Shown here: positions 1,834-34,200 of the stretch, in pieces
Layout of the letters: each line of letters begins with the position of its first letter
Numbering within the stretch: the first letter of the stretch is position 1
Assembly (NCBI RefSeq): GCF_002208135.1
Contig: NZ_CP021646.1
Coordinates: forward strand, 2,420,001 to 2,484,000
Length of the DNA: 64,000 nt
DNA from: Pseudoalteromonas piscicida
GTDB lineage: Bacteria; Pseudomonadota; Gammaproteobacteria; Enterobacterales; Alteromonadaceae
Reading direction: 5' to 3'
Made by a program: the position numbers and the translations under genes
The notes under the pieces: generated by a model
Seen by the model: only the letters and a program-made list of their open reading frames with translations
What the model was told of the DNA's origin: nothing
The model's database searches: none

Positions 1834-4800
1834 TTAAGACTCTGTGAGACTTGATTTAAGCGACTCCGCTTCAGCTTGGACCGAGTCTGGGCCGTTTTCA
1901 ATAACATCGTTGAGCGTTGATATAGCCGAATCATAATCTTGAATTTCGATATAAGCTTTCGCTAAATCTAATTTAGCAGCGAACCCTTCATCCTCTAAAT
2001 CAACATCCGTGGTATTTTCGCCCGCCAATAGTTCTTCAAAATCGCCAAGTCCAACGTCCATATTTGCACCAACGTAAGGTTCAACATCGCTATCAAGGTC
2101 GTCACTTTGCTCGAGCAGATCTTCAATTTCTAAGTAGTCTTCCGTGCCTTCGGCGTCCGTTGGTAGCGCTTGGGCTTCTCCTGCTACCAATTCGTCTTGC
2201 AATAAACTGTCGAAATCTACTTCAAAGTCATCAGCATTTCCGGCATCAAAGTCATTGGGATCGTCCAGTTCGCTAAGCAACGCATCGAAGTCTGCCTGAG
2301 TAAAGTCAGCCATAAACTCTTTTTCAATTTCGGCTTCGTTGACCTCGGGTAATTCAGACTCTGTTTGTGGCTCAGCAAGTAGAGTTTCCAAGTCATCTTC
2401 ATCGTTTAACTCTGGCAGAGCCTCTTCGACTTCAAGCGCTGGTTCAGACTCAAGCGTGTCGCCTTCAGCTTCTTCGAGTGGAACTTCGGGCTCGTCTTCA
2501 AGCAAAGTCTCTTCGTCAAAATCTGCATTTAATTCTGGCAGCTCGTCTTCGACTTCAAGTACCGGTTCAGACTTAAGCGTGTCGCCTTCAGCTTCTTCGA
2601 GTAGAACCTCTGGCTCGTCTTCAAGCAAGGTTTCTTCGTCAAAGTCTGCATTTAATTCTGGCAGCTCATCTTCGACTTCCAGCTCTGGCTCAAGCGTGTC
2701 GCCTTCAGCTTCTTCGAGTGGAACCTCTGCCTCGTCTTCAAGCAAGGTTTTTTCGTCAAAATCTGCATTTAATTCTGGCAGCTCGTCTTCGACTTCCAGC
2801 TCTGGCTCAAGCGTGTCACTTTCAGCTTCTTCGAGTGGAACTTCGGGCTCGTCTTCAAGCAAGGTTTCTTCGTCAAAGTCTGCATTTAATTCTGGCAGCT
2901 CGTCTTCGACTTCGAGTACCGACTCAGACTCAAGCGTGTCGCCTTCAGCTTCTTCGAGTGGAACTTCGGGCTCGTCTTCAAGCAAAGTCTCTTCGTCAAA
3001 ATCTGCATTTAATTCTGGCAGTTCGTCTTCGACTTCAAGTACCGATTCAGACTCAAGCGTGTCACTTTCAGCTTCTTCGAGTGGAACTTCGGGCTCGTCT
3101 TCAAGCAAGGTTTCTTCGTCAAAGTCTGCATTTAATTCTGGCAGCTCGTCTTCGACTTCGAGTACCGACTCAGACTCAAGCGTGTCACTTTCAGCTTCTT
3201 CGAGTGGAACTTCGGGCTCGTCTTCAAGCAAGGTTTCTTCGTCAAAGTCTGCATTTAATTCTGGCAGCTCGTCTTCGACTTCGAGTACCGACTCAGACTC
3301 AAGCGTGTCACTTTCAGCTTCTTCGAGTGGAACTTCTGGCTCGTCTTCAAGCAAAGTCTCTTCGTCAAAGTCTGCATTTAATTCTGGCAGCTCGTCTTCG
3401 ACTTCGAGTACCGGTTCAGACTCAAGCGTATCACTTTCGGCTGCTTCGAGTGGCGCTTCTGGCTCGTCTTCAAGCAAGGTATCTTCGTCAAAGTCTGCAT
3501 TTAATTCTGGCAGCTCGTCTTCGACTTCCAGCTCTGGCTCAAGCGTGTCGCCTTCAGCTTCTTCTAGTGGAACTTCTGGCTCATCTTCGACTTCCAGTTC
3601 AGGTTCAGACTCAAGCGTGTCGCCTTCAGCTTCTTCGAGTGGAACTTCTGGCTCGTCTTCAAGCAAGGTATCTTCGTCGACATCCGCACTAAATTCAGGC
3701 AAATCATCTTCATCAAAGCCAGAGATTTCATCGTCGAGAAGGTCGTCATCAAGTCCCCCTCGATATCAAATTGAGCGTCATTAGATAATGCTTCGGATAA
3801 TGCTTTTTCGGTTTCGCTTTGCGAGTCAGTAGTTTCAAGTACTTCGCTAAGCTCCAGCTCAGGGTAACTATCTAGCTCTGCACTTGGTTGTAGGTCATCT
3901 TCGTCAAACAACTCTTCTTCTGCCAGTAAATCCACTTCGTCATTAAGTGGATCGTCTCCCAGCTCAATTTCGATTTCCTCGTCAGAGAAGTCATCTTCAA
4001 GTTCAGAACCTAGCTCAAGCTGCTCTTCGGCTTGAAGCTCCTGCAGTAGCTCATCAACACTTTTTAAATTGGGGTCTTCAAATTCACTGTCTTCGTCGGC
4101 TTGAACATTGTCTTCACTAAAATCGGCTTCATTGGCTAAATCGGACTGTAACGTATCTTCCACCGGTTCTTCAGATGATTCCGGAATAGCGTCCTCTTCA
4201 TCCAACATACCCGACAAGTGCCCTGACTCTGCTAAAGGCTGTTCAGAGTCAAGTTCAGACTCGTCAAATTCTTCTCCAAGCTCTGGCAACCCATCTTCTG
4301 CCGTTTCGTCTAATAACGTATCAAGGTCGTCATCAGCAGGTTCACCGACTTCCTCTGCAAGCTCCGGCAACGTTTCTTCTGGCGTTTCGTCTAGTAATGC
4401 ATCGAGTTCGTCATCAACCAGATCATCGGACTCTTCTTCTAATTCCGGCAATGTCTCTTCTTGCGCTTCGTCTAATAAGGCATCTAGTTCGTCATCAACC
4501 AGATCACCGGACTCTTCTTCCAATTCCGGCAATGTCTCTTCTTGCGCTTCGTCTAATAAGGCATCGAGTTCGTCATCAACCAGATCATCGGAATCTTCTT
4601 CTAATTCCGGCAATGTATCTTCTTGCGCTTCGTCTAATAAAGCATCGAGTTCGTCATCAACCAATTCATCGGACTCTTCTTCCAATTCCGGCAATGTATC
4701 TTCTTGTTGCGATTCGTCTAATAAAGCATCGAGTTCGTCATCAACCAGTTCATCGGACTCTTCTTCCAATTCCGGCAATGTATCTTCTTGCGCTTCGTCT

Positions 4801-7336
4801 AATAAGGCATCGAGTTCGTCATCAACCAGATCATCGGACTCTTCTTCTAATTCCGGCAATGCATCTTCTTGTTGCGCTTCGTCTAATAAAGCATCGAGTT
4901 CGTCATCAACCAGATCATCGGACTCTTCTTCTAATTCCGGCAATGCATCTTCTTGTTGCGCTTCGTCTAATAAAGCATCGAGTTCGTCATCAACCAGATC
5001 ATCGGACTCTTCTTCTAATTCCGGCAATGTATCTTCTTGTTGCGATTCGTCTAATAAAGCATCGAGTTCGTCACCAACCTGATCATCGGACTCTTCTTCT
5101 AATTCCGGCAATGTATCTTCTTGCGCTTCGTCTAATAAAGCATCGAGTTCGTCATCAACTAGATCATCGGACTCTTCTTCCAATTCCGGCAATGTCTCTT
5201 GTTGCGATTCGTCTAATAAAGCATCGAGTTCGTCATCAACCAGTTCATCGGACTCTTCTTCCAATTCCGGCAATGTATCTTCTTGCGCTTGGTCTAATAA
5301 GGCATCGAGTTCGTCATCAACCAGATCATCGGACTCTTCTTCCAATTCCGGCAATGTATCTTCTTGCGCTTCGTCTAATAAAGCATCGAGTTCGTCATCA
5401 ACTAGATCATCGGACTCTTCTTCCAATTCCGGCAATGTCTCTTGTTGCGATTCGTCTAATAAAGCATCGAGTTCGTCATCAACCAGTTCATCGGACTCTT
5501 CTTCCAATTCCGGCAATGTATCTTCTTGCGCTTGGTCTAATAAGGCATCGAGTTCGTCATCAACCAGATCATCGGACTCTTCTTCCAATTCCGGCAATGT
5601 ATCTTCTTGCGCTTCGTCTAATAAAGCATCGAGTTCGTCATCAACCAGATCATCGGACTCTTCTTCTAATTCCGGCAATGCATCTTCTTGTTGCGCTTCG
5701 TCTAATAAGGCATCGATATCGTCACCAGCAAGCGTGCCTGGCTCTTCGTCAATTTCAGCTAGCGCATCGTCTTGCACTTCATTTAACAGGGCATCAATGT
5801 CATCGCCCGCAAGCTCATTGCTTGGTTCCTCAAAATCAGGTAGTGCATCATCGTCAGCATCCTGCGAGGCATCGAGTAGCGCATCGATATCATCAGTATC
5901 TACTAGACTCTCACTATCAAAGTTGCCACTGAATTCGGGGTCTTCATCTAAAGCACCGTCAAGAATTGAATCGATATCATCGTCGTTTGCAACAGCACCC
6001 GCTTGCTCATCAGCAAGTTCCTCACTCAAGGCAGCAAGGGCATCATCGCTAACATCAATTTCTTCATCTTGAGACTCGTTGAACAAATCATCTAGATCGC
6101 TGTCACTTAAAATATCTTGGCTATCATCAACATCAAGCGAAACCTCATCACCAGCCTCGTCGAAGTTCTGTTGCATAAAGTCTTCGTCGTGATCATCACC
6201 AAACGATATATCTTCATTTAGTAAGCTATCCAGTTCGTCTTGATCTAACGAATCACTCCCTTCATCGAAGTCATCATCAAGTGAGTCGAAGGTAATTTCA
6301 TCGTCTTCAGGTAAGATATCATCATCAAGCTGTACACTACTTCCCAAGGCATCTTCGTCGTCGCCCATTCCGATATCAAGTGGGTCTGGCTCAGGGTCAA
6401 ATGCAGTCGCCGCGGTTGCAGCTCCCGCTGCAGCCACGGAGGGTGTTTGCGGAAGAAAATCGTCGTCATCTGTAGACGCTTGAGATTGGCTTCTCCGGCG
6501 TAGGAACATAACTAATCCAGCAATTGCCAGTAGTGCTGGCAATGTGGCAAGTAACGCAATTCCAGCTGCCGAGCTAAAGAATGCGCTCAACTCGCTACTT
6601 TCTTGCGCTTTTGCCTGAGCCGCCTGCTGATCAATCAATTCATTTTGCAAGTCAATAACAGCCTTTAGCTGTTGCTGAATTTCACTGTCTTTGCCAAGCT
6701 GAGTACGAACCGTTTGAAGCTCGGTAGAAATAGCCCCAAGCTGTTGCTTTAATTTATTGTTTTCGGACAAGATTTCTTCAACATTGCGCACCGAGGATTT
6801 GAACTCTTTTTGCAAGTCCATCAGGCGCATGTCTTGTTCCATCTTCAAAGAACGCAGTTGATTAGTCAGGTCTTCTTTTGCTTCTTCTACATCGACTTTG
6901 CGAGCTTGTGTAACCTTTTTTTCAGCTTCGTCTATCGCATTTGGGTTCAATAACCCCTTACGCTTCATTTCCCAAAGTTTGTCATCTTGATCCGACTTTT
7001 GCTTTGCCAACTCTGGATTAACGCTACGAATTTCATTTATGGTAGGAATACGTAGGTACGCCCCATCCTGCATATGGTTGAGGTTTTTATCTAGGAATGA
7101 GTTAGGATTTTTATCGTAAAGCGCCTTCATCACTTGATAAATGGTGACCGAGTCATCTGGCCGCACTTTTTGTGCTATACGCCACAATGTATCCGTAGGT
7201 CTGATAGGCCCTATTGACCGACCTTGCGCCCCATAATCAACCCCTTTGGGCCTTTTAGCACCACCCCTTCTTGGGTATATACCGGTGTGGCAATCAGTGC
7301 GAATACAAAGATACTAAATAAGGCTAAACCGCGCAT
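1834..7336 (-). CDS. fimV: FimV/HubP-like polar LysM-TPR protein, interrupted by two apparent 1-base losses
   Basis: Inner-membrane, cell-pole organiser of the FimV/HubP family (peptidoglycan-binding LysM-like region outside; acidic tail with a C-terminal TPR-like domain inside). The start is taken as ATG at 7336, which gives a signal-like N-terminus (MRGLALFSIFVFALIATP) followed by the family pattern GPKG...GPIRPTDTLWRIAQ. This reading needs one extra base at the C4 tract 7241-7244. A coiled-coil segment, then a transmembrane segment (about 6500-6580) and a very long Asp/Glu-rich tail follow. A second break is at the C5 tract 3755-3759; with one base restored the frame runs EGGLDDDLLDDE into the downstream repeats. 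It ends in the conserved FimV C-terminal domain (FAAKLDLAKAYIEIQDYDSA). The span is 5503 nt; adding two bases gives 5505, exactly 1835 codons. As printed it reads as three pieces: a short N-terminal one, 3564-7187 and 1834-3702. Confidence 0.9.
2419..3690 (-). repeat. Acidic 39-41-residue coding repeats in FimV, about 9 copies
   Basis: Tandem units of 117 or 123 bp encode variants of ELPELNADFDEETLLEDE followed by EVPLEEAESDTLES and LEVED. About nine copies of NADFDE can be counted. Several central copies are nearly identical in DNA as well as protein, which implies recent copy-number change. Length differences come from a 2-residue change at LEPELE versus LESESVLE, which keeps the frame. Confidence 0.92.
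4390..5720 (-). repeat. Acidic 27-28-residue coding repeats in FimV, about 16 copies
   Basis: Tandem units of 81 or 84 bp encode TLPELEEESDDLVDD, then ELDALLDEAQED. About sixteen copies of DELDALLD are visible with only small variation (EAQ/QAQ/ESQQ). A three-unit block (EAQEDT, QAQEDT, ESQQET) is itself repeated 243 bp apart (compare 5158 onward with 5401 onward), giving a higher-order repeat. All length variation is a multiple of three. Confidence 0.93.
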
Positions 7337-7541
7337 GCCGATCCTTTACTCAAATGTTTAACACCCGTTAAACGACATTTTATTATTATGGCTTTGAAGC
7401 AAGCTCTATTCCAAATGCAAACTATAAACCAGATATGTTGGAATATCCATTGCAACATATTGAAAGTTAACATGGTTATAATGCTTTTTACTGATTTTGG
7501 AATAGCTGATATAGGTGAAGAATAGTCAAGTATTTGACTTA

Positions 7542-7571
7542 ACGGCAAACTTCTTGGCAGAAGTTTGCCGT
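7542..7571 (-). terminator. 12-bp perfect hairpin downstream of asd
   Basis: ACGGCAAACTTC (7542-7553) pairs perfectly with GAAGTTTGCCGT (7560-7571) across a 6-nt loop. It is 54 bp past the asd stop codon on the minus strand. The following bases (TAAGTCAAAT) are not a clear T-run, so it is a likely 3' end of the pdxB-asd transcript with moderate support. Confidence 0.6.
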
Positions 7572-7625
7572 CATAACGCAGAGTATTACGCAAAACTTTG
7601 CTTACTTTGCGATACCAATGAGTAT

Positions 7626-8642
7626 TTATAGGTAGCTTTCTATCAGAGCTTCTGCAATTTGAATGCTATTGGTTGCTGCTCCTTTTCTGGTGTTGTCTGA
7701 TACAACCCACAAGTTTAAGCCCAGCGGATGTGAAATATCTTGCCTTACACGACCAACGTAGACGGTGTCGTTACCACTGGCATCACTCACCGGTGTTGGG
7801 TAGTCGTTTTCGTCTTCGATTAGCTCAACACCCGGCGCATCAGCAAGTAACTGCTTAACGTGTTCAAGATCATAAGGCATGCGTGTTTCAAGGTGAATAG
7901 CCTCAGCATGACCAAAAAATACAGGGACGCGAACCGCTGTTGGGTTAACCAAAATGCTCGAATCGCCCAAGATTTTTTGCGTTTCCCACACCATCTTCAT
8001 TTCTTCTTTGGTGTAGCCATTTTCTTGGAACGTATCAATTTGAGGAATGACGTTAAAAGCGATTTGTTTGGTAAACACTTCGTTTTCCATCGATCTAGCA
8101 TTCATTAAGTTTGCAGTCTGCTTCGCTAACTCATCTACCGCTTCTTTACCTGCGCCAGATACTGCTTGATAAGTTGAGACATTAATTCTATCAATGCCAT
8201 AGGCATCATAAATTGGTTTAAGTGCCACTAGCATTTGGATTGTAGAGCAGTTAGGGTTAGCGATGATATTACGGTTTCTAAAATCTGCAAGACTGTCTTT
8301 ATTCACCTCAGGAACCACTAACGGAATATCAAAGTCGTATCTGAAATGAGAGGTATTGTCTATCACAATGCAGCCAGCTTCAGCGGCGATTGGTGCGTAC
8401 TTTTCCGACACGGAACCACCCGCTGAAAACAAACCGATATGGGCATTAGAGAAATCGAATTCTTCAACATCCAGGACTTCGATTTTTTCACCCTTAAAGT
8501 CAATTTCTTCACCTGCGCTTCGGCTACTCGCGAGTGGGTAAAGTGTGTCCACAGGAAACTTTCGTTCCGCGAGTAATTCGATAATTTGCTTGCCAACAAG
8601 ACCTGTTGCGCCAAGTACCGCAACATTATATTTTTGCGACAT
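7626..8642 (-). CDS. asd: Aspartate-semialdehyde dehydrogenase
   Basis: NADPH-dependent reduction of aspartyl phosphate to aspartate semialdehyde, the branch point to Lys/DAP, Met, Thr and Ile. At 338 aa it has the GATGLVG nucleotide-binding loop at residues 10-16, the catalytic Cys in NPNCSTIQ near residue 130, and a full C-terminal domain. The length and sequence style are those of the Asd2 / Usg-type branch (about 337-340 aa), but the catalytic Cys is kept, so it should be active and not a Usg-like paralogue. It starts 37 bp after the pdxB stop on the same strand, suggesting co-transcription. Confidence 0.95.
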   Translation of the reverse strand: MSQKYNVAVLGATGLVGKQIIELLAERKFPVDTLYPLASSRSAGEEIDFKGEKIEVLDVEEFDFSNAHIGLFSAGGSVSEKYAPIAAEAGCIVIDNTSHFRYDFDIPLVVPEVNKDSLADFRNRNIIANPNCSTIQMLVALKPIYDAYGIDRINVSTYQAVSGAGKEAVDELAKQTANLMNARSMENEVFTKQIAFNVIPQIDTFQENGYTKEEMKMVWETQKILGDSSILVNPTAVRVPVFFGHAEAIHLETRMPYDLEHVKQLLADAPGVELIEDENDYPTPVSDASGNDTVYVGRVRQDISHPLGLNLWVVSDNTRKGAATNSIQIAEALIESYL

Positions 8643-8679
8643 TATTTTTCCTCATTCTGTAATATACCAACCAAAGCAT

Positions 8680-9804: not shown

Positions 9805-9834
9805 GCGGGTTTCCTGTCACCTATTGTCTCGAGT

Positions 9835-9861
9835 ACTCAGGCGATAACACATCGCCTGAGT
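9835..9861. terminator. 11-bp perfect hairpin between pdxB and the small membrane protein
   Basis: ACTCAGGCGAT (9835-9845) pairs with ATCGCCTGAGT (9851-9861) with a 5-nt loop. It lies downstream of the minus-strand gene at 9888-10208 and upstream of pdxB. There is no T-tract on the minus strand, so termination is inferred from position and stem strength only. Confidence 0.5.
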
Positions 9862-9887
9862 CGAGTTTAACATGGCAAGGTAGGCGA

Positions 9888-10773: not shown

Positions 10774-10788
10774 ATAAGGAAGAACAAC

Positions 10789-18861: not shown

Positions 18862-18862
18862 A

Positions 18863-20780: not shown

Positions 20781-21047
20781 AGCCGCCGTTCTTAAAACAC
20801 AACAATCAAATAATCACATTTAATATTTTTTATTTACAAACAAAATAATCTTGTAACAAAGATAGCGACAATAGTATCGCGACAAAGCCGACCAAGTTAA
20901 CGGATTGGCACACACGGGACGTTGGTTAAGTAGTACTCGCCTCTAACAAGTATGATTGGGTTTTCTAAACAATTTCCCGTCATACAAAAATATAAGCATT
21001 GTGAAAATCACAATCGAATTCATTATTTTAGTCAGAGTAGGAAAGTC

Positions 21048-22667
21048 ATGAACCAGTACAACACAGAAAAGGAAGCAATTCAGGTCGAGAAAAAGCTCGG
21101 TAGTATTGTTTTCATCTCGCAAGATCAATCACTTTCTCTGGAGTCAGTGCAAGATTACGCAGCTCAGCCCATGTCCAAAGTAAAGTTAGACGAATTGGCA
21201 CTAAAGGCTAGAATCGAGAAAAACCGTCAATACCTAGACAATAAACTAGCAAATCAAGAAGATATATACGGCGTGACGACTGGTTTTGGTAATTCAGCAA
21301 GTAACCGTATTTCAACTTCTCTCTCTGAAGAATTACAACAAAACCTCATTGCTTATCATGGCTGTGGCGTTGGTGACTACCTTTCAGAGTCTGATTGTGC
21401 TGCAACTTTATTGATCCGCATGAACTGTAATGCCAAGGGCTTTTCAGGTGTTAGTTGGGAATTGCTGGCGCAAATGGAAACCTTCCTAAACAACCGCATT
21501 ATCCCTGCAATCCCTTCAATGGGTTCTGTGGGTGCCAGCGGCGACTTAACACCACTTTCTTATGTCGGTGCAGCGCTCGGTGGTAAGCGAAAGGTATACT
21601 ATCAAGGACAACTACGTGACACCGCCGAAGTATTAGAAGAGCTGAATATTGCGCCATACAAGCTTAAGCCAAAAGAAGGCCTAGCTATCATGAATGGTAC
21701 GTCGGTTATGTCTGCTATCGCCACGAATGCGCTAAAAGATATCCGTCGGGGCATTGATTTAAGCTGTAAACTGATTGCGCTTTATGTCGAGCTTATTGAA
21801 GGTCGTGCGTCACCATTCCACAAACGCGTACACGAACTTAAACCACACCGCGGTCAGCAGATCTGCGCAGAGAAAATTCTAGAACGCCTAACTAACGTTG
21901 ATCAGCGCTTAGGTCGTAGAAACCGTACCGATGACAATATTGAGTTTGGCAAGCAAGAAACATTCAGATTACAAGATAGCTACTCAATTCGCTGCTCTCC
22001 GCAAGTGTTAGGACCATTAATTGATGCTGAGATGTGGGCGTCACAGATCCTAACGACTGAGATCAACTCAGTGAACGATAACCCACTATTCGATGATGAG
22101 AATGACCTTATCCTCAATGCGGGCCACTTCTACGGCGGTCACGTTGCAGCGGTGTGCGACACCCTCAAGCCACTCGTTGCAAACATGGGAGCGTTACTAG
22201 AGCGTGAATTAGGTATTTTGGTTGACGACCGCCTTAACGGTGGTATTTCTAATAACTTAGTTGCGCGCGAAGACCTTGGCGACAAGGCTTGGGTACACCA
22301 CGGCTTCAAAGCAATGCAAATCACGTCATCTTCTCTTGTTGCTGAAGCACTAAAAAATGCAGGCCCGATGTCGGTATTTTCGCGCACAACAGAAGCACTA
22401 AACCAAGATATCGTCAGCATGGGGACTATCGCTGCACGTGACCTTCGTCGTATTACCGACCTTATCAAGCCAGTTATTGCTATTCAGGCAATGGCAATCC
22501 GCCAAGCATTTTATGTTGATGGGAAAGATGCAAAAGCGGAAAAACTCAACGTACTTTCTCGCGAGTTTTTCGACGAAATTTGCAGCAACTTCCAACCCGT
22601 CATTGAAGACAGGCCAATGGATGTCGAAATCAACAATATGGTTAACGCCCTATTTAATGAGCAGTAA
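21048..22667 (+). CDS. altA: Aromatic amino acid (tyrosine) ammonia-lyase, MIO type
   Basis: Non-oxidative deamination of an aromatic amino acid, here most likely L-Tyr to 4-coumarate, the starter of the aryl polyene. The start ATG at 21048 is preferred (GGAAAG just upstream; it fits the family N-terminus) over an in-frame ATG at 20952; this gives 539 aa. The MIO cofactor triad Ala-Ser-Gly is in SVGASGDLTPLSYVG, and the family segment GVTTGFGNSA is present. At the position that sets substrate choice, the sequence is NLIAYHGCGVG: Tyr-His where histidine lyases have Ser-His and the classic Rhodobacter tyrosine lyase has His-Leu. Tyrosine specificity is therefore inferred mainly from cluster context. 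It is separated from altB by a hairpin-containing gap of 137 bp. Confidence 0.88.
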   Translation: MNQYNTEKEAIQVEKKLGSIVFISQDQSLSLESVQDYAAQPMSKVKLDELALKARIEKNRQYLDNKLANQEDIYGVTTGFGNSASNRISTSLSEELQQNLIAYHGCGVGDYLSESDCAATLLIRMNCNAKGFSGVSWELLAQMETFLNNRIIPAIPSMGSVGASGDLTPLSYVGAALGGKRKVYYQGQLRDTAEVLEELNIAPYKLKPKEGLAIMNGTSVMSAIATNALKDIRRGIDLSCKLIALYVELIEGRASPFHKRVHELKPHRGQQICAEKILERLTNVDQRLGRRNRTDDNIEFGKQETFRLQDSYSIRCSPQVLGPLIDAEMWASQILTTEINSVNDNPLFDDENDLILNAGHFYGGHVAAVCDTLKPLVANMGALLERELGILVDDRLNGGISNNLVAREDLGDKAWVHHGFKAMQITSSSLVAEALKNAGPMSVFSRTTEALNQDIVSMGTIAARDLRRITDLIKPVIAIQAMAIRQAFYVDGKDAKAEKLNVLSREFFDEICSNFQPVIEDRPMDVEINNMVNALFNEQ

Positions 22668-22704
22668 CCCTCATTAGGTCATTTTTGAGATGACGCTATG
22701 GCTA

Positions 22705-22732
22705 TAGCTGACAGCTTCACAGTGGTCAGCTA
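22705..22732 (+). terminator. Hairpin between altA and altB
   Basis: TAGCTGAC (22705-22712) pairs perfectly with GTCAGCTA (22725-22732). It sits in the only sizeable gap of the early cluster and has no T-run after it. It may be a partial terminator or RNA-processing site that sets altA levels apart from the downstream genes; function is inferred. Confidence 0.4.
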
Positions 22733-22804
22733 GGGCTGATTGTTGCTCAAAAACCGCTAATGAGACGCAAACTACACACTATAGAAACTAAAAAGGATAT
22801 AAAA

Positions 22805-23098
22805 ATGAGTAGCTTAGAATCAATAACACAATTTATTAAACAAGACATCATTGTAGACAATTTAGAAGTGGTAGATAGCATCGATGAAATCGAAGACGAT
22901 GCTCAACTTATCGGTGATGGCCTTGACTTAGACAGCATCGAAGTGCTCGATCTTGTGGTATCTATCGAGAAAAAATACAACCTTAAGTTCAAAGATTACC
23001 CAGAACAAACCATTCAAGAAAAAATGAAAAATGTCAGTACCTTAGCTAGCTTTGTTCACGAACAAGTTGAAGCACAAACAACAGCTGAAGCTTGTTGA
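22805..23098 (+). CDS. altB: Acyl carrier protein
   Basis: A 97-aa acidic carrier protein. The start ATG at 22805 (MSSLES...) follows AAAAGGAT at a good distance; a longer in-frame reading from 22760 has no such support. The phosphopantetheine attachment Ser is in GLDLDSIEVLDL near residue 42, the usual LDS variant of the DSL motif. It presumably carries the growing aryl-polyene chain for AltD/G/H. It ends 34 bp before altC, whose own first 80 residues are a second carrier domain. Confidence 0.9.
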   Translation: MSSLESITQFIKQDIIVDNLEVVDSIDEIEDDAQLIGDGLDLDSIEVLDLVVSIEKKYNLKFKDYPEQTIQEKMKNVSTLASFVHEQVEAQTTAEAC

Positions 23099-23132
23099 TC
23101 TGACCGTAACCATTTTCGCTTGGAAGGACACC

Positions 23133-24627
23133 ATGCAAACATACAGTGCCATTCGTTCAACACTCATGCAACTGATTGAAGCTGAGTTAGAAGTAGATAA
23201 AGAACAACTAAACGTAGTAAGTGACGACGCCAATTTAATTGAGGCGCCACTGTTTCTCGATTCGGTCGACCTTATGCAGTTATCTGCTGCATGTAAAAAA
23301 GCGTTCCAATTAAAAGACTTGGGCGAATTGAGCACTGTAACTTTGGCGACACTGACACGCCAAATAGCGTTAAACTTAACGCAACAAAAACAAGTAACGC
23401 CCTTAGAGACATGGGCAGATCAAAGCACCTCTCTCAAAGAGGCCGATTTACTCGCACTGATACAGCGTAGTCTAGATTGTGAGATCCTCGGTCAGGTTCG
23501 CTTCATCAAAGACAGCACGCCCTGCGATATCATTGTGAGCACTATGGTGTTATTGGCGCACAATATCACTCCAGTATTGAGTGCAAATGCGGCTGCGAAC
23601 ACCGATGCGTTTAGCTGGCGAGAGCTCTCGCTTACCAAGCAAGAAGTAGAAATTCCGTTTCTTTCCATGACGGCATTTTTACAACACCATAGCGATAAGA
23701 CTATTGGCTTTGAAACATCAGGCAGCACTGGCAAGCCACAAACTTGGCATAAATCCATCGCCTCACTCCATGCAGAAGCTGTCACCTTTGCTGACACTTT
23801 CTCATTTAACGCCGTAGATTATTTTTGTGCTTGCGTTGATATCCGCCACATGTTCGGCTTTATTTGGGCATTTATGCTCCCTCTGCAGCTTGGCAAACCA
23901 GTGAGTTACGAACTTGGCTCTACACCGGACGTACAACCGATAAAAGACAAACAGGTCGGTGTGATCTTAACGCCAACTATGTTTGACTTTGTAGCTGACC
24001 AGCTAAATCAAAACCACTGCTACTTGATAAGCTCTGGTGCACCATTCAAAGGTGAGAAAGAGCAAAAGCTTGCTGACCTCATCTCTACTCTGTCACTTTC
24101 TATACAAGCTTTTGAGGTACTTGGAAGCACTGAAACCGGCGGTATTGGTTATCGTCCGTTAGGCAGCAACGAAACGCACTTTACTAAGTTTACTGCGGTC
24201 GACATTTATCAAAATGCCGAGCACAAAACCATGTTGAGATCGCCTTTTTTAGTGGCTAATTGTGAAGCGTTTGAGCTCAAAGATAAGCTGATTTTCAGCA
24301 ATGAAAACCAATTCACACACGGTGGGCGCGCAGACCAAATATTTAAATATGCAGGTAAACGCTACTCACTACAAAGTATAGAAAAAATCCTCCAAGAACG
24401 CTTTGTGGGACTTCGCCATCGCGTGTTTTTTATTGAGGACAATAACAATAATAAAGGGGCGAGCTGGTTGCCTTCGTCGAAGGACTATCTTGCCCCCTAC
24501 ACTTCAGGACATCAGAAGTTGGTTTAAAGATTTACCCACGCCGCAGGTTCATTTTTTGGCGCAATTTCCAGAAAACGAGCTCGGCAAAATCACCCTCTCG
24601 GCACTACAGGAATGCGTACATGAATAA
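23133..24627 (+). CDS. altC: ACP-AMP-ligase fusion, interrupted by two apparent 1-base losses
   Basis: Starts at ATG 23133 behind GGAAGGA. Residues 1-80 are a carrier domain (attachment Ser in LFLDSVDLMQL). The rest is an adenylate-forming ligase with the P-loop FETSGSTGKPQ near residue 192 and the ATP-site segment GSTETGGIGYR. It should adenylate the coumarate-type starter and load a carrier protein. The frame breaks twice near the end: at the G4 tract 24456-24459 and the C5 tract 24493-24497. Restoring one base at each gives ...KGGELVAFVEGLSCPP, then TLQDIRSWFKDL and the expected C-terminal NELGKITLSAL with the adenylation Lys. Span 1495 nt plus two equals 1497, exactly 499 codons. As printed the protein stops at 24527 and loses the Lys-bearing subdomain. 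The end overlaps altD by 8 bp. Confidence 0.85.
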
Positions 24628-26803
24628 TAAACAACAAACTTTCATTACTGGTTATGGTGTGCTCTGTGCTGCGGGCGAGAATCGCCAAGCACTGCTAACT
24701 AGCATCAAGGAAAACCGTACTGGTATTGACCGCATTAATCGTTTCGACACACAGGGACTAACACACAATGTTGGGGCGCTCGCCATCAACTACGAGAACT
24801 ACAGCACAGAAAGTTTTGAGATGGATTTGGCGAGTCAATACGCTATCCACGCCGTTTCAGAAGCACTTGAGCATGCAAACTTAGCCTTAACTCAGATGGA
24901 CAGTACCCGTGTGGCATTTATTCTCGGTAATGCAAATTGCGGTATGTTTTCATTGATGGAGAGCCTTAAAGGTCAACATCAGTTAGGATTTAAGTTTTAT
25001 CCACCGCATAAAATTGCAACCGATGTCAGTCGCCACTTTGGCATTCAGGGTCCCGTAATGACCTTCACCTCGGCCTGTACCGCAAGTAGCAGTGCCATTG
25101 CTTTTGCTAAGCAACTTATCGAAAACGACCAAGCAGATGTCGTCATTGCTGGCGGTGCAGATGCCCTAAGCGAGCTGGTTTACGGCGGCTTTCAGTCGGT
25201 ACAGTCCTTGAGCCCTGAACCTTGTGCTCCGTACAGCGAAAAAATGGGATTAAGTTTAGGTGAAGGCGCAGGCTTTTTAGTCTTTGAATCGCAAACACAT
25301 GCAAATAAGCGCAACGCAACGCTGCGATATCAATTACTCGCGACGGGGTCGAGCTTAGATGCTCACCACGCTACAGCGCCTAACCCCGAGGGCGATGGTG
25401 TACGCCGCGCTTTTACGCAGACATTGTCCTATGCGCCCGTTGCAGCAAGTGATATTGAATATATCAACAGCCACGGGACTGGTACGCCAGCAAATGATGG
25501 CGCAGAGCTAAAAGGGATCCAATCAGCCATTGGTGAACAGGCCATGCGCGACGTCTCGGTTTCAAGTAGTAAATCTTACTTTGGTCATACCCTTGGTGCC
25601 GCTGGTGCCGTAGAACTTATTTCAACTTTGGTCAGCCAGGATGAAGGACTTCTACCAGCAACACTGGGTGTCGACTCAATAAGATCTTGTTGCCAAGCGT
25701 ATCAATTAGTGACCAATCAGGCGAAACCTCAGGTTGTTGATGTTTTTGCGGTGACTAACTCAGCGTTTGGTGGTCACAACACCAGCATGCTACTCAGTAA
25801 ACACCAGAAAACGTCGATTAACACGGCGCCAAAACCGGTGTATCTACTTGCCGCCACCAGCCTGTCTGATACTGAAGTGTACAATGCTAGACAAAATAGC
25901 ACCGACCACTTTGCTGAATTTAACTTAAAACAGCAGTTCCCTGCACTTTTCCAGCGCCGTACACCGTGTGTTGCTCAATTTGCCTTGGGTGCCTGTCAAT
26001 TTACCTTACAAGACAGCGAGCTCGATCTTGCTCAATTACCACTAGCCGAATTCGCGGCCTACTATGCTAATCCCATTGGCTCGTTGGAAACCTTAGATAA
26101 AAACCTCGCATCATTTCAAGAGGGCATTGCAGAGCTAAAAAGTACACATTTCCCCAATACCGTCGTCAATGCCACATTAGGGCAACTCGCACTCGGGTTC
26201 GGTTTTAAGAACTCAGCCACTTGTGTCAGCGATTTGGGCAATGACTTTTTACATGCGCTTTGGAGCGCAACGCTTGATATGCGTGAGGGCCGCAGCCAAT
26301 ATGCGATGGTATGTAGCTCGCAAGACGATACTGCACTCTCGCAGCAAGTCTGGGCTGCGCATCAATTCCAAGCAAATATCGGTCATTTTTCCAGCGCTGC
26401 TATCTTAGCAACCAGCGAAGTGTTACCTGCAGGCTACCAACCTCTCGCAGAAATCATAGATTTTATTCAGATCAATGATGCGCAGCAGCATCAAGCGCTA
26501 GACAAATTACTAGCAAGCCATGCTAGAGAGCTGAGCCAAGTGGGTAATGTCGTGTTAAGCACTCATCACGATGCAGCGTTTGCCACCATTGCAGCAAGCT
26601 TGGACAGCCACTTACCACAAGCTCAACTTATCAAATATCAACCACAAGCCACGCCTCAACACAGCACAGAATTAGCAGTACGTGCGCTAATGTATGCACT
26701 CAACACCCCAGCTGGTGATACCGAGTTAGATCAAACCCTACTCCTAAGCGTTAATCTCGCGGGAAGTATGACGGGATGTATTTTACGAACAGTAAGGAAA
26801 TAA
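24620..26803 (+). CDS. altD: Fused ketosynthase / chain-length-factor-like protein
   Basis: The protein is 727 aa. Residues 1-400 are a complete FabF-type ketosynthase with the active Cys in TFTSACTASSS, first His in NSHGTGTPAND and Lys-His in SKSYFGHTLGAAG. Residues about 405-727 form a second, shorter thiolase-fold half. It aligns without gaps to the Cys region of the first half (FGFKNSATCVSDLG against FGIQGPVMTFTSAC) with Gly in place of the active Cys, and it lacks the His motifs. This is the pattern of a KS fused to a chain-length factor. In aryl polyene clusters the two are usually separate proteins. It should extend the aryl starter with malonyl units. It overlaps altC and is 1 bp from altE. 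Confidence 0.85.
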   Translation: MNNKQQTFITGYGVLCAAGENRQALLTSIKENRTGIDRINRFDTQGLTHNVGALAINYENYSTESFEMDLASQYAIHAVSEALEHANLALTQMDSTRVAFILGNANCGMFSLMESLKGQHQLGFKFYPPHKIATDVSRHFGIQGPVMTFTSACTASSSAIAFAKQLIENDQADVVIAGGADALSELVYGGFQSVQSLSPEPCAPYSEKMGLSLGEGAGFLVFESQTHANKRNATLRYQLLATGSSLDAHHATAPNPEGDGVRRAFTQTLSYAPVAASDIEYINSHGTGTPANDGAELKGIQSAIGEQAMRDVSVSSSKSYFGHTLGAAGAVELISTLVSQDEGLLPATLGVDSIRSCCQAYQLVTNQAKPQVVDVFAVTNSAFGGHNTSMLLSKHQKTSINTAPKPVYLLAATSLSDTEVYNARQNSTDHFAEFNLKQQFPALFQRRTPCVAQFALGACQFTLQDSELDLAQLPLAEFAAYYANPIGSLETLDKNLASFQEGIAELKSTHFPNTVVNATLGQLALGFGFKNSATCVSDLGNDFLHALWSATLDMREGRSQYAMVCSSQDDTALSQQVWAAHQFQANIGHFSSAAILATSEVLPAGYQPLAEIIDFIQINDAQQHQALDKLLASHARELSQVGNVVLSTHHDAAFATIAASLDSHLPQAQLIKYQPQATPQHSTELAVRALMYALNTPAGDTELDQTLLLSVNLAGSMTGCILRTVRK

Positions 26804-26804
26804 G

Positions 26805-27572
26805 ATGACGACCGTGATCGAAGTGAAGAACTTAAGGAAGGTCTACAAAAGAACACGAAAAGTTGCCGTCGATGACGTCTCTTTTAGCGTTAGCGAAGGC
26901 GAATGTTTTGGACTCCTTGGGCCCAATGGTGCCGGAAAAACCACGACGTTGGAAATACTGCAGGGCTTGCGTAGTGCAACGTCAGGTGAAGTGACGTTAT
27001 TCGGTCTTAATTGGAAGCAGCACGAAACTAAACTCCGCAGCCTTATGGGTGGCGTGATGCAACACAATAACCTTTACGAAAAACTCAAAGTAAAAGAGTG
27101 CGTTGAGCTATTTGCCAGCTTTTACCCAAGCTACACGCCAATTGATACGCTGCTTGAGCGCTTCAATTTAAGCGAGAAAAAAGACGCTTGGCTAAGTGAA
27201 CTCAGTGGCGGACAAAAGCAACGCGTATTTTTGGCGATGGCAGTGGTTGGCCAGCCCAAGTTGGTATTTTTAGATGAGCCAACTACGGGACTTGACCCCA
27301 CGAGTCGTCAGGAATTTTGGCACATCATTAAAGATCTCAAAGAAGCCGGTACCTGTGTGATGTTAACGACCCACTACATGGATGAGGCAGAGTTCTTATG
27401 CGACAACTTAGCCATCATTAATTCAGGTCAAATCATAGAGTCAGGCGCGCCAAGCGACATTATTAATCGCACCTTTGAGACTCCAGTGATTAAAGAACCC
27501 AGAAAAGCCACACTCAACGACGTATTTTTGAAACTCACAGGTTCCACGATGGAGAGGGAAAGTTATGCCTGA
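26805..27572 (+). CDS. altE: ABC-2 type transporter ATP-binding protein
   Basis: Nucleotide-binding subunit of 255 aa: Walker A GPNGAGKTTT near residue 38, signature LSGGQKQR, Walker B LVFLDEPTTGLD, switch His in LTTHYMDEAE. It is of the drug/antibiotic-export DrrA-like class and overlaps the permease gene by 8 bp. The pair sits inside the polyene synthase genes, so export of the finished lipopeptide, or self-protection, is the natural inference. Confidence 0.92.
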   Translation: MTTVIEVKNLRKVYKRTRKVAVDDVSFSVSEGECFGLLGPNGAGKTTTLEILQGLRSATSGEVTLFGLNWKQHETKLRSLMGGVMQHNNLYEKLKVKECVELFASFYPSYTPIDTLLERFNLSEKKDAWLSELSGGQKQRVFLAMAVVGQPKLVFLDEPTTGLDPTSRQEFWHIIKDLKEAGTCVMLTTHYMDEAEFLCDNLAIINSGQIIESGAPSDIINRTFETPVIKEPRKATLNDVFLKLTGSTMERESYA

Positions 27573-28680
27573 GTTAAGTCAAACTAAGTTATATCCATTT
27601 TGGCAATTAATGATGGTCAATATTCGACCTTTTTTCCGTGATAAAGCGGTATTGCTATGGACATTCGGTTTACCTATTTTCATCGCCCTATTGTTGATCC
27701 AAGCCTTCTCCGGTGGACCAAAAATGTCACCTATGAATGTGGTGGTGATGCATGGCGAGCAAATTGAACAGAAATGGCTAAAAGCGATGGAAGAAGATCC
27801 ACTCGTTACCGTTACCCGCCTCTCACAAACCGATTCAATTGTGCTGGAAGACAGTTTTGCTTCTGCTCAGCTGGCGGAAGTGATCAGCTCACCAGGCTCG
27901 GTGCTACGTAAGCTGCAAAATGAGGTGAGCCCTGAAGTCTACCTTGCCCCCAACGCTATGTTTTCTACTCATAACTCCGATGAGTCGTTAATGGCACGTA
28001 ACTATCTATTGCGTCTTAAAGCGCAAGCTAACGGCGAAGAGATGCGAAGCAATGTCATTAGCGTCAAAGGTTATCGCTACACTGACTGGTTGATCCCTGG
28101 GATCATCGTGTTACAAGTCCTTGGTTTAGCACTGGTGTCGATTGCCAACAGCTTAGTTTCGGACAGACAAAACGGCTTTTTCAAGCGTCTACGCCTTTCT
28201 CCTTTCAAACGCCGTGATTACATCATTGGGATCGTACTCGCACGCTTATTCTTATTGGTGTTTCAAATGCTGATCCTGTTCGTCGCATTTCACTTTTTAT
28301 TTGGTTATACGCTGCAAGGAAACGTGCTGGATATCATTGCGGTAATGGCACTTGGGTCATTTTGTATCTGTATGCTCGGCGTGTTAGTCGGCGCCCGCAG
28401 CCAACGAGTTGAAGTCTCATCAGGGATAGCCAACTTACTTTACTTTCCGTTGATGTTCTTGTCGGGCATCTATTTCGACACCGCGAACTTTCCCACTCTA
28501 CTGCGAGAAATAGTGTCGCTACTGCCAACCACTGCATTTTTGGATGCACTGCGCTTAGTCGCAAACCAAGGGGTTGAGCTGGCTGCGGTAAGTCGTCAAC
28601 TGATTATTTTAGGCGTCACCAGTGTGGTGTTCTTCCTCATCGTTTACTTCTGCTTTGATTGGGGAGATGAAAAATCATGA
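27565..28680 (+). CDS. altF: ABC-2 type transporter permease
   Basis: The 371-aa permease has one N-terminal span (LLWTFGLPIFIALLLIQAF), an extracytoplasmic loop of about 130 residues, then five spans in the C-terminal half, including the ABC-2 core with NGFFKRLRLSP and the LMFLSGIYFDTANFP segment. It overlaps altE by 8 bp and altG by 4 bp, so all three are translationally coupled. It works with AltE. Confidence 0.9.
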   Translation: MPELSQTKLYPFWQLMMVNIRPFFRDKAVLLWTFGLPIFIALLLIQAFSGGPKMSPMNVVVMHGEQIEQKWLKAMEEDPLVTVTRLSQTDSIVLEDSFASAQLAEVISSPGSVLRKLQNEVSPEVYLAPNAMFSTHNSDESLMARNYLLRLKAQANGEEMRSNVISVKGYRYTDWLIPGIIVLQVLGLALVSIANSLVSDRQNGFFKRLRLSPFKRRDYIIGIVLARLFLLVFQMLILFVAFHFLFGYTLQGNVLDIIAVMALGSFCICMLGVLVGARSQRVEVSSGIANLLYFPLMFLSGIYFDTANFPTLLREIVSLLPTTAFLDALRLVANQGVELAAVSRQLIILGVTSVVFFLIVYFCFDWGDEKS

Positions 28681-29075
28681 TCACTGATAACTTGCCACAT
28701 AAGGCACCATTTAAGTTTGCAGACAAGATAATCGAACACTCACCAGGAGAGATGATCGTTGGACTGAAGTTTGTCTCGCATAACGAGCCAGGCCTTCAAG
28801 GACATTTTCCGGATGAGCCTATTTTCCCGGGTGTGTTAATCATCGAAACCATGGCGCAGATCAGTGGCTTGTGCTGCAACAACACGCATAAAGGAGGCAT
28901 GCTGTCTTCCATAGAAAAAGCCAAATTTAGCCGCCCTGTTCGCCCCGGCGAAATCATTAAAGTAACGGCAAAATTAGAAACTGAATTTGGTGCTATGGCG
29001 CGCTTCAAAGCACAAGCACATGTTGAAGATGAGTTGGTTGCAAAAGCCGAACTCACGATTGTTTACACGGATTAA
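28677..29075 (+). CDS. altG: FabZ-like hotdog dehydratase
   Basis: A 132-aa 3-hydroxyacyl-ACP dehydratase. The catalytic His and Glu are in GHFPDEPIFPGVLIIETMAQ, the FabZ signature. It should remove water from each 3-hydroxyacyl intermediate to leave the conjugated trans double bonds of the polyene; no enoyl reductase is present in the cluster, which fits retention of the double bonds. It overlaps altF by 4 bp (ATGA). Confidence 0.92.
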   Translation: MITDNLPHKAPFKFADKIIEHSPGEMIVGLKFVSHNEPGLQGHFPDEPIFPGVLIIETMAQISGLCCNNTHKGGMLSSIEKAKFSRPVRPGEIIKVTAKLETEFGAMARFKAQAHVEDELVAKAELTIVYTD

Positions 29076-29086
29076 GGAACTTGGTT

Positions 29087-29818
29087 GTGTTTACTGGAAA
29101 GACAGTAGTAGTGACTGGCGTATCCAAAGGGATAGGCAAAGGCATCGCACTCGCCTTTTTGCAAGGTGGTGCTCGAGTATACGGTATTTGTCGCACACAA
29201 GCCCCCATCGTGGAGTTACACAAACCTGAGTATCAAGCTCGTTTCACTCAACAAAGCGGCAATATTACCGACAGCGAGTTCGTCAACTCTACTATTCGCC
29301 AAGCGATAAGCGACACGGGTCGGGTTGATGTCTTGGTGAATAATGCAGGGATCACGGATGATAGCTTGTTCTCTCAGATGTCGTACGACGCTTTTCATAA
29401 CGTGTTAGATATCAACTTCAAGGGTACATTGCTGTGTTGCCAAGCGGTATTGCCAGTCATGACTAAGCAAGGTGCAGGTAAGATTATCAATATGGTGTCG
29501 CAAAGCGGAATCAGTGGACGTGAGGGTCAAGCCAACTACGCGACCTCAAAAGGCGCAATTATTGGCCTCACTCGGACTATTGCACGGCAATATGGTCACT
29601 GTGGTATTTACTGTAACGCACTCGCTCCGACGTTTATTGCAACCGATATGATTGATGATATCCCCGCAAGCATTATCAACCCGGTGCTTAAACATACCGC
29701 ACTTGGTCGTGTTGGGAGCGTCAAAGAAATTGCTGATGCCACGCTATATCTCGCTTCTTGCGCCTCGAACTACCAAACCGGAAATGTGCTTCGTCTGGAT
29801 GGAGGGCTTGCGGTATGA
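29087..29818 (+). CDS. altH: 3-oxoacyl-ACP reductase (FabG-like)
   Basis: A short-chain dehydrogenase of 243 aa. GTG at 29087 is preferred as the start because AAGGA (29074-29078) lies 8 bp upstream; the TTG at 29081 would be too close. The cofactor loop GVSKGIGKG, the NNAG motif and the catalytic Ser-Tyr-Lys set (SQSG, then YATSK) are all present. It reduces the keto group after each extension. Its stop overlaps the altI start (ATGA). Confidence 0.92.
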   Translation: MFTGKTVVVTGVSKGIGKGIALAFLQGGARVYGICRTQAPIVELHKPEYQARFTQQSGNITDSEFVNSTIRQAISDTGRVDVLVNNAGITDDSLFSQMSYDAFHNVLDINFKGTLLCCQAVLPVMTKQGAGKIINMVSQSGISGREGQANYATSKGAIIGLTRTIARQYGHCGIYCNALAPTFIATDMIDDIPASIINPVLKHTALGRVGSVKEIADATLYLASCASNYQTGNVLRLDGGLAV

Positions 29819-30522
29819 ATGCTCAAGCGTTTATCTTACTTTATCCAACAAGTGAGTTTGATAGCCACTTCGTTACCCATTTGCTGTCGCAAAAACATCC
29901 GTTACTCCTTATCAATGCAAGTGCTGAGGTGCTCGCGCATAATCCTGAAGCAAGCCATATCCAACTTAGCGCTCCCCTCTCGGAGTTAAATACCAGTACA
30001 TTACTAGATTGGTTTGAAATCAATCATAATCAGCAAGAAGTGATGGTACTGCATTGTGCCAATCGCCTTGATGAAAGCAAACTACTCGAAGACATTGCCG
30101 TTGGCGAGCAAGTGATTGCACGTCTAGAAAGCGCATTTGCGGCACTCAGAGTCATCGCGGACAACCTCAGAGTGAGTGGTGGAAACCTCGTCTTTTTAAC
30201 CCAATCAGACACCTTAAACTACGAGTTAGAAGCTACCGCCAGTGTCTGTAATCACGCTCATAATGCATTAATGATGACGCTCGCGCGCGAGTATCAAGGT
30301 AGCAAGCTGGCAGTTAACAGTTTTGTGTTACCGCTACTGGCTACCGATAGCAAAGCTGCGAGAATCCAAAAGCGCAACTTAAAAGGGGGCGTACTGGGTG
30401 CACGACCTGCGGTATACAGCTATCAAGACTTGGTGGAATACCTAGTCAACTTTATGAAAACCAATACCATGCTCACCGGTCAATCCATCGCATTCACGCC
30501 GACGCTGGAGCTCAAGCTATGA
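29815..30522 (+). CDS. altI: Catalytically degenerate SDR / ketoreductase-like protein
   Basis: The start ATG at 29815 overlaps the altH stop; the product is 235 aa. The N-terminus (MNAQAFILLYPTSEFD) lacks the glycine-rich cofactor loop. In the region equivalent to the catalytic Tyr-Lys of AltH, an alignment anchored on TLAREY / TIARQY puts Ala and Asn where Tyr and Lys should be. The SQS-like TQSD and the C-terminal fold elements (LAVNSFVLPLLATDS) are still SDR-like. It is best read as a dead KR that may pair with AltH as a structural subunit, as inactive partners do in other aryl polyene systems. That role is inference. Confidence 0.75.
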   Translation: MNAQAFILLYPTSEFDSHFVTHLLSQKHPLLLINASAEVLAHNPEASHIQLSAPLSELNTSTLLDWFEINHNQQEVMVLHCANRLDESKLLEDIAVGEQVIARLESAFAALRVIADNLRVSGGNLVFLTQSDTLNYELEATASVCNHAHNALMMTLAREYQGSKLAVNSFVLPLLATDSKAARIQKRNLKGGVLGARPAVYSYQDLVEYLVNFMKTNTMLTGQSIAFTPTLELKL

Positions 30523-31274
30523 TGCAGGTTGACTTATACTGTTTCCATCACGCGGGTGGCTCTTCTTTGTTTTTTAGAGAATGGACAAAACATTTACCTG
30601 CGCATTGGCAACTCCACGGCATCGACTTACCGGGCCGTGGTACTAAAGCAGGCATGCAATCTTTACGGGACTGGGATGAGGCACTTAGTCACCTAAGTAG
30701 TAGCACGCAACTTCAGCCGCGAAGTGAGCGGCTGTGCGTGTTTTTTGGTCACAGTCTTGGCGGTATGGTGGCTTATAAGCTTGCCGATCACCTTGCTAAA
30801 CACGCACTGACAACGCCGGATTTACTCTGCTTATCTGGGTGCCGCGCGCCAAGTGTTCCCTCAGCCACCCAGTACTCAAGATTGACTGAATCGGACTTGC
30901 TCACGACTTTATATCATCTCGACATGCTGCCTAAACATCGTTTAACGAAGGACGTAGAAGCGGTTGTGGCCGCCATGTTTAAAGACGACTTTATGTTGGC
31001 CGAGCAACCAGTCAGCACTGACATTACGTTGACGATGCCGGTCGAACTGATCCTCGCCACAGAAGATCACTTGGTTACGCCTGAGTCACACCAAGCTTGG
31101 TCTGAGTACTGCGAGAACCATTTTCAGTACCATCATGTCGATGGTGGTCACATGTATTTACAGCAACGCCCAACGCTGGCGTGTGAGGTGATTGTCGCCG
31201 CGGTCGCGCGACACCTAGCACGCTTGCAGCAAACAAAATACCAAAAAGCAAACTGGCAAAAGCCGTTGTGTTAA
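30519..31274 (+). CDS. altJ: Type II thioesterase
   Basis: A 251-aa alpha/beta hydrolase of the external (editing) thioesterase class: N-terminal FHHAGGSS, nucleophile in GHSLGG near residue 81, acid in TEDHLVTP, and His in GGHMYL. Such enzymes clear misprimed carrier domains of PKS/NRPS lines; hand-over of the polyene chain is another possibility. It overlaps altI by 4 bp and comes directly before the NRPS genes. Confidence 0.9.
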   Translation: MMQVDLYCFHHAGGSSLFFREWTKHLPAHWQLHGIDLPGRGTKAGMQSLRDWDEALSHLSSSTQLQPRSERLCVFFGHSLGGMVAYKLADHLAKHALTTPDLLCLSGCRAPSVPSATQYSRLTESDLLTTLYHLDMLPKHRLTKDVEAVVAAMFKDDFMLAEQPVSTDITLTMPVELILATEDHLVTPESHQAWSEYCENHFQYHHVDGGHMYLQQRPTLACEVIVAAVARHLARLQQTKYQKANWQKPLC

Positions 31275-31297
31275 GGCGAAAAAACAAGGATCACACA

Positions 31298-34200
31298 ATG
31301 AACTCACTGTCCAATTCCGCCAATTTCAAGTCTCTGACAACGAGGCAACTTCACGTATGGCAAGCCCAACAGCTTGATTTGGCAAATCCAGTATATAACA
31401 TCGCTTGCGCGGTACAGTTTACCGGCGGGCTCACATCTGAGGCACTACAGCAAGCCTTGGTGTTGCTATTTGCAAGACACCCGGTGTTATCGAGTCGTAT
31501 TGATGAGACTCAAGGCGAACCACAACTCGAATTACTACCCAGTGCCCCCAAATTATTAGCCGTGCCCGATGAGCTTGCCGCTTTTAGTGACTCTATCACC
31601 GCCAAAACCTTAATTGAGCAAGCCATCGATATCACTAAAGAGACCTTTCAATTCTATGCTGGTAGCTCAGAAACTCGGTTGCTATTGACCATCAAAGGGC
31701 ATCACATCAACTGTGACCAGTGGGCATTGCAAGTATTAATGAGCGATTTACTCGCATGTGTAGAATCGGTGCTTGATAACTCTGAACTTGATCTCGCCCC
31801 CTAGATTATCAAGTGATGTTTGAAGAAAAGCCTGAGCGTGCAGAAACTTCACAGAAGAGCGAACTCTACCCTATTGATTTTTACCAGAGTAATACTGAGG
31901 CGCTAGCGCATCATTATGACGGCATCGCGTTTCGTGAAGAAAACCCAGAGGCACTAAAGCAAGTAAAACAGACGGCCTCTCAAGCTGGTGTCACGAGTTT
32001 TAGCGTCGTGCTTGCCAGCGTCTTTTTGACTTTATTTCATACCACTGGGCAAACCGATTTGACCATAGGGATCCCGATGGCTCGCCGCACCCGTAAAACA
32101 CGCGCGATCTTAGGTCATTACTCAGACGTTGAAACGGTTTCTATTTGCGATATTGAACAGTACACAGGCGCATCGCTTATCAGTGAAGTTAGTAACCAGC
32201 TCACTCAATTACTGCTTTCGGGAAATAGTAATAAAGACGCTGCAAAGCATATTAATGTCACCTGTAACTACTTAGCCAAGCTAAAAAGCAATGGCATTCG
32301 CCCAGGGATCACCCCGTTGATGATTGGTCGCCAAGGGTACGAACTTGCCTTGGGCACAGCGGGAGATACCATTATCAAAGGGGTATCCATTGAGCCCGGT
32401 GTTTCACAATTTGATATCGAATTTACGCATTTTGAAACCGAAGGGGGCCTTTGCCGTAAAGTGGTCGCCGCTAAGTCTGTCTTTTCTCGCGTGGCCATGA
32501 CACGGATCACCGATATTCAGGCGCGCTTTATTGAATTACTTACCCACTCTAGCGATCTTAATATCGCCGAACTGCCGGTACTGGATGAAGAAGAGCAGAA
32601 GCTTATCTTGGCGCGCAGCAATCAAGATAATGAAACCTTCTTTTCCGACACCACTTTAAATCACTGGTTTGAACAAGCGGCAAGTAAGCACCCAGATCAA
32701 ATCGCGCTTAAGACCCAAACACACTCTATCGATTATAAAACCCTTAACGCCAGAGCCAACGCCCTTGCCTTGCATTTACGGGAGCAATATCAGTCTCAGT
32801 ATCAACAAACCCTCACTGCCGATACGTTAATTGCGCTGTACATGCAGCCTTCTATCGAGATGCTGATTGCAATTCTTGCTGTCACTAAAGCGGGTGCGGC
32901 TTATGTGCCGCTGTCTCCCGACCATGCCAGCGAGCGAACAACCTTTATTCTCAGTGATACCAACCCAAGCCTGTTGATTGTCGACGAGCAAGAGTATGCC
33001 GCCGCACAAGACAAATGCCGTTTGGCGGAGGTGGCTTGCCCATTAGTTACGCCACTTAATGCCCAGCAACAAAGCGACACGGCCCCTGTCATCAGCCAAT
33101 CACCACAGGACTTGGTATACATTATTTATACCTCAGGTACGACAGGCCAACCAAAAGGCGTGATGCAAACTCATGAAAACGTCGCTCGATTGTTCACGGC
33201 GACGGAGCAAGATTATGGCTTTGACCACCACGATATCTGGGTGCTTTACCATGCCTATACTTTTGACTTTAGTGTATGGGAAATGTGGGGCGCCCTACTT
33301 TATGGCGGTAAACTCTGTATTCCTGACAGCAACCTGATCCGTGATTTTGAGGCCTTTGCAGACTACTGCTCAGAGAATCAAGTGACTGTGCTTAATCAGA
33401 CTCCTGCCGCATTCTATGAATTTAGCGCAGCGGCACTAAACGCAAAATTGAATTTTGACAAACTGAGGTATGTGATTTTCGGTGGTGACAAACTCAACCC
33501 CGAAATGCTCAACCCTTGGTGGAATTGTTATGGAGATGAGCAACCGCTGCTGGTCAATATGTACGGGATCACAGAAACCACGGTGCATGTCACCTATAAA
33601 GCACTCACGCAACAATCAAGTTCTAAAGCCTCTCATATCGGTAGACCCATATTAGATATGAAAGCGTACGTGCTAAATTCCAAATTGCAGTTGGTCGAAC
33701 CTGGAGCTTGCGGTGAGCTATATATTGGTGGTGCAGGTCTTGCTCGTGGTTATTTAAACCGCGAAGCGCTCAGTCAAGAACGCTTTATTAGCAGTCCATA
33801 TGCAAGCGAACAAGATATTCAACAAGGACGAGCCAGACTGTATAAAACCGGTGACTTGGCAAGACGCCTGCCGGATGGTGAGTTGGAATATATCGGCCGT
33901 AACGATAATCAGGTGAAGATCCGTGGCTACCGTATTGAACTGGGTGAAATCGAGAGCGTGATCAACCAATTGCCAGAAGTTGCTCAAGCGGTGGTTATCG
34001 ACCGTACCTTACAAAATGTTCCCTACCTAGCCGCTTATATCAAGTTTAAACCAGAACATCATGGCCAAACTGCCCAAGTTAAAGCCCAAGTAGGTCAAGC
34101 GCTGCCCAGTTATATGCAGCCAAAAACGTGGACTGAGCTTGCGGAAATACCTTTGACTGGCAATGGTAAATTAGACCGTAAAGCGTTACCAGAGCCTGAG

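Follow-up and report, generated by a model that had tools for sequence, protein, structure and literature searches.

Single-base losses at G/C runs in fimV, altC and altK of a Pseudoalteromonas piscicida genome are very probably errors of the assembly

Five frame losses interrupt three genes, fimV, altC and altK, in the window (the whole stretch of DNA analysed, 64,000 nucleotides at C1:2420001-2484000 of a genome of 5,317,048 bases in two contigs, C1 and C2), and we regard them with great confidence as consensus errors of the assembly; all three genes are probably intact in the living bacterium. The frame losses in the window are the local view of a genome-wide defect and not biology. A genome-wide bias towards such losses was observed, together with its dependence on run length and on base, and its occurrence in an essential gene and in rRNA genes; two related assemblies compared with each other did not show it.

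Frame losses in fimV, altC and altK

The gene names were taken from an earlier note on this DNA, and the Pfam matches were consistent with them, AMP-binding for altC and condensation, AMP-binding and PP-binding for altK; a TPR_19 match just below the cut-off was found at the C-terminus of fimV. Relatives of one alt-cluster protein were encoded in six named Pseudoalteromonas records (P. flavipulchra, HM-SA03, S2755, P. piscicida 36Y_RITHPW, P. peptidolytica and P. aurantia). The comparison of the window with the relatives' DNA for frame losses covered the part up to about 43,284.

As read in the window, altC (23052-24527, plus strand) encodes 491 aa with its C-terminal end in the wrong frame, and altK (31268-35850, plus strand), an NRPS gene, is divided into two ORFs, one of 178 aa and the other of 1345 aa. 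The frame of altC is lost first at GGGG 24456-24459 and again at CCCCC 24493-24497, the latter run being interrupted in the relatives, and that of altK is lost at CCCCC 31797-31801; at all three places the window was one base shorter than 3/3 relatives (P. flavipulchra, HM-SA03 and S2755). When read from the same TTG, altC has 525 aa in P. flavipulchra and S2755, and by our count about 22 other residues stand for roughly the last 56 in the window. The claim that altC is broken was thus right as to the double loss of frame, but most of the length is kept and the change lies only near the C-terminus. The length of 1518 codons proposed for altK would imply a later start, as altK is a single ORF of 1527 aa from a GTG in P. 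flavipulchra and S2755, and the ORF coordinates of HM-SA03 also give 1527 codons. Over 20,952-38,672, no indel apart from the alt losses had a length not divisible by three in the comparisons with P. flavipulchra and HM-SA03; S2755 showed three further single-base indels, at 22788 and, as a pair that cancels out, at 24087/24090. Relatives carry altC and altK intact.

The fimV gene (1834-7336, minus strand, with the ATG at 7336 taken as its start) loses its frame twice and is left as two main ORFs, 3564-7187 and 1834-3702. The second loss lies in CCCCC 3755-3759, one base shorter than in HM-SA03, the only one of the relatives tried with sequence over this place, and the HM-SA03 frame is open across the counterpart. 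The first loss had been placed in CCCC 7241-7244. The run length there was unchanged in the five nearest genomes shown (HM-SA03, P. flavipulchra, S2755, P. peptidolytica and P. piscicida 36Y), and the relatives' alignment placed the loss beside GGG 7248-7250, where the G run is longer in 36Y and the remaining four have AGGG. In three more distant relatives the aligner set the gap beside the C run instead, and the exact place of the first loss therefore rests on the near relatives. The letters of all five tracts named in the earlier note were read again as given, and its G7 tract near 43515 was found at 43516-43522. The comparison with other Pseudoalteromonas alt and fimV sequences that it had proposed returned a window shorter by one base, so that both altC losses, the altK loss and the fimV loss at 3755-3759 stood, and one fimV tract was reassigned. 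A long array of near-identical acidic repeats was also seen by eye within fimV at 4397-5730; in the relatives' assemblies the fimV sequence breaks or holds Ns, the HM-SA03 copy being one with Ns.

Contingency loci usually work by frame changes at G/C runs, and this likeness is what speaks for phase variation or programmed frameshifting at the tracts, a reading whose probability we put close to nil. The runs in the window are 3 to 5 bases long, short of the long slip-prone mononucleotide tract on which phase variation depends. Programmed frameshifting would require the frame change to be kept in the relatives, but there altC and altK are single ORFs (P. flavipulchra and S2755) and fimV is open across the homologous places wherever these are covered. 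The same pattern was moreover found in unrelated genes (murD, PEP carboxylase, glgA and glgB). On the reading that we favour, consensus errors, the sequencing or consensus method calls G or C runs of at least four bases one base short, with a miscall probability that climbs with run length and with A/T runs hardly ever affected, and each miscall inside a gene breaks its frame.

Two probable mobile elements were also observed in the window. A dispersed repeat of about 317 bp at 57298-57623, with the inverted ends AGGGCCTGTTGA and TCAACAGACCCT, looks like a MITE; it was missing at the homologous P. flavipulchra site, where the flanks abut (G041:C21:78971), was present in 8 copies of 80-100% identity in the 1.18-Mb sample described below, some of them about 50 bp shorter, and had many more copies in three relatives. 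On the minus strand at 60663-61701, two overlapping ORFs with HTH domains and a DDE_3 domain make up a transposase in two pieces, which we take to be IS630-like; for most of 60,650-61,762 no match was listed at the homologous place in three relatives.

Frame changes across both replicons

A search of the whole genome for AMP-binding domains revealed several split domains on both replicons, and larger samples of C1 and C2 were therefore compared with the relatives. The split domains did not serve as a control, the relatives' matches being listed without weak, partial ones. A passage of PMC11858312 describes two chromosomes in P. piscicida strains. The sample of 1.18 Mb (464 kb of C1 including the window, another 400 kb of C1 and 320 kb of C2) was aligned with contigs of P. 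flavipulchra and HM-SA03, keeping alignments of more than 1500 bp and more than 88% identity and ORFs of at least 150 aa, and leaving out events within 90 bases of the start or 30 bases of the end of an ORF, indels near N and cancelling clusters within 60 bp.

When P. flavipulchra ORFs were followed through this genome, 50 net frame changes were obtained in 661,535 coding bases, and 49 of them were losses (47 of -1, one -2 and one -4, next to one +1). The ORFs of HM-SA03 gave 9 changes in 104,520 bases (8 of -1 and one +1), more or less overlapping the P. flavipulchra set, and another 111,973 bases of this genome yielded 8 of -1. The control, in which P. flavipulchra ORFs were followed through HM-SA03, gave 2 frame changes in 201,682 coding bases, against about 15 expected at the rate of this genome, and 2/201,351 in the reverse direction; this control was smaller than the test (201,682 against 661,535 bp). 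One control event, of 4 bases, coincided with the -4 in this genome; the place differs in both comparisons, and hence the change is probably in P. flavipulchra. The other was a single +1 in a poorly aligned stretch. The excess of frame losses is more than chance. The rate of 75.6 net frame changes per coding Mb predicts about 4 in 64 kb, against the five reported in the window, which contributes 3 of the 50 losses listed below, the fimV breaks lying outside the genome-wide list.

The control also bears on the view that the genome is mostly affected by artefact, yet one or more of the five breaks is a true mutation of the isolate. Relatives do differ by frameshifts, as the 2 in 201,682 coding bp testify; neither of the two, however, was a single-base loss at a G/C run, the control rate predicts only about 0.6 frameshifts of any kind per 64 kb (88% coding), and all five places in the window are at G or C runs. 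We consider such a mutation unlikely, with a small chance left to it. If one of the breaks were true and recent, a naturally alterochromide-negative or pilus-altered strain would be hidden amid the sequencing errors.

The position of the changes agreed with a consensus artefact. Altogether 52 distinct indels were collected (51 through P. flavipulchra and one more through HM-SA03), comprising 50 single-base losses, 29/50 on C1 and 21/50 on C2, a lone gain of one base and a 4-base change. Within 4 bases of 49/50 losses there was a G/C run of at least 3, as compared with 12.7% of random places; for runs of at least 4 the figures were 38/50 against 2.5%, and for runs of at least 5 they were 18/50 against 0.4%. 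On the other hand, A/T runs of at least 4 were near only 5/50 losses, against 17.8% of random places. The claim that the losses share one sign held for the five of the window; across the genome the sign was almost, though not entirely, uniform.

Run lengths were then tabulated for those runs that could be paired by two identical bases on each side. In coding sequence, G/C runs were one base short in 0/3963 cases for runs of 3, 7/656 for runs of 4, 15/93 for runs of 5, 6/14 for runs of 6 and 0/1 for runs of 7, with no gains, and only 3/6733 A/T runs of 4 to 8 had lost a base, so that the loss at G/C runs of at least 4 (28/764) stood far above that at A/T runs (Fisher p ~4e-25). In HM-SA03, set against P. 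flavipulchra, 0/286 coding G/C runs of at least 4 were short. The intergenic G/C runs were one base short in 0/471 (3), 0/93 (4), 3/16 (5) and 0/2 (6) cases; the runs of five (3/16) come near the coding rate (15/93), so there is no sign of selection, in numbers that are small. Intergenic A/T runs could be longer or shorter here, and the control showed the same in fewer cases. As only some of the runs lose a base, most should be correct, and the G5 and G7 tracts that stay in frame, raised earlier as a caution against an artefact, are not counter-evidence. Homopolymer under-calling, the cause that the earlier note had thought simplest, is supported, and the evidence for it now spans both replicons instead of five sites.

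Some observations fitted less smoothly. The lone single-base gain (C1:2396855, in a galU-like gene) makes an A run next to a C8 run one base longer, and one loss, at C1:2206227, has no adjoining G/C run. These two, the 0/93 intergenic runs of four and the smaller control weigh far less than the run-length dependence.

murD, rRNA copies and other broken genes

In all, 46 P. flavipulchra ORFs had an affected counterpart in this genome, and 40 of these ORFs were sent to NCBIfam (three ORFs crossing stretch borders, two alt ORFs and the 4-base case being left out), and 27 matched a family at an E of 1e-20 or better. Besides murD, the broken genes included PEP carboxylase, glgA and glgB. It was also seen that four one-base losses fall within 4.3 kb at C2:198687-202961, the counterpart of a 3995-aa P. 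flavipulchra ORF.

For murD the genome holds one match above the family cut-off, which stops short, and the remainder adjoins in another frame; each part has about 97% identity with its P. flavipulchra counterpart, and the base is missing from a C run at C1:3203867. Bacteria with peptidoglycan cannot do without murD, so a cell that grows would hardly carry this break. Similar losses were present among the rRNA genes, where the three full-length 23S copies were compared, the other six being partial and with masked bases. The copy at C1:417790 (417790-420671) was one base short at three G runs relative to its sister copy at C1:2637874, and a stretch beside another 23S copy, presumably 5S-like, had lost one C of four. 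Some single-base differences between rRNA copies lay away from G/C runs, and these may be natural.

An isolate that is a true mutator, for example deficient in mismatch repair and slipping at homopolymers, would likewise collect many one-base losses at runs across the genome. Such an isolate would not be expected to spare the far commoner A/T runs (3/6733 against 28/764), to show hardly any gains or to carry a break in murD, held to be essential, and we judge this explanation very improbable. A consensus artefact, by comparison, should give mostly single-base losses, at homopolymers and rising with run length, should be blind to gene function and should be absent from independently sequenced relatives. 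What was found was 50 losses with one gain and one 4-base change, a rise with run length in the coding G/C runs, losses in intergenic runs of five, in murD and in a 23S copy, and 0/286 between HM-SA03 and P. flavipulchra.

A warning should accordingly stand beside this genome, since pseudogene counts, NRPS predictions and claims of gene loss are unreliable at its G/C runs. Extrapolated from the sample with 88% coding assumed, about 76 net changes per coding Mb would correspond to some 350 falsely broken frames in 5.3 Mb.

Comparison with known sequencing artefacts

Inadequate polishing of a long-read consensus is the most likely source of the errors, and among long-read platforms the pattern points to a PacBio consensus as the likeliest. 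A passage of PMC4487206 describes how PacBio omits bases in GC homopolymers, and part of PMC4888979 reports that one PacBio consensus contained 561 homopolymer deletions of a single base. The likeness to these accounts lies in single-base omissions in homopolymers, GC homopolymers in the first paper; with the platform of this genome itself deduced, it extends to the type of loss and not to its rate by run length. For the Kastor long-read assembly, a section of PMC12007338 states that false deletions made up most indels, were most frequent after runs of four to five and fragmented genes. Gene-fragmenting false deletions at short runs are common to both cases, but in that section A/T runs had about twice the errors of G/C runs, whereas nearly all errors here were at G/C runs. 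The Kastor pattern, as given there, fits this genome less well than do the PacBio precedents.
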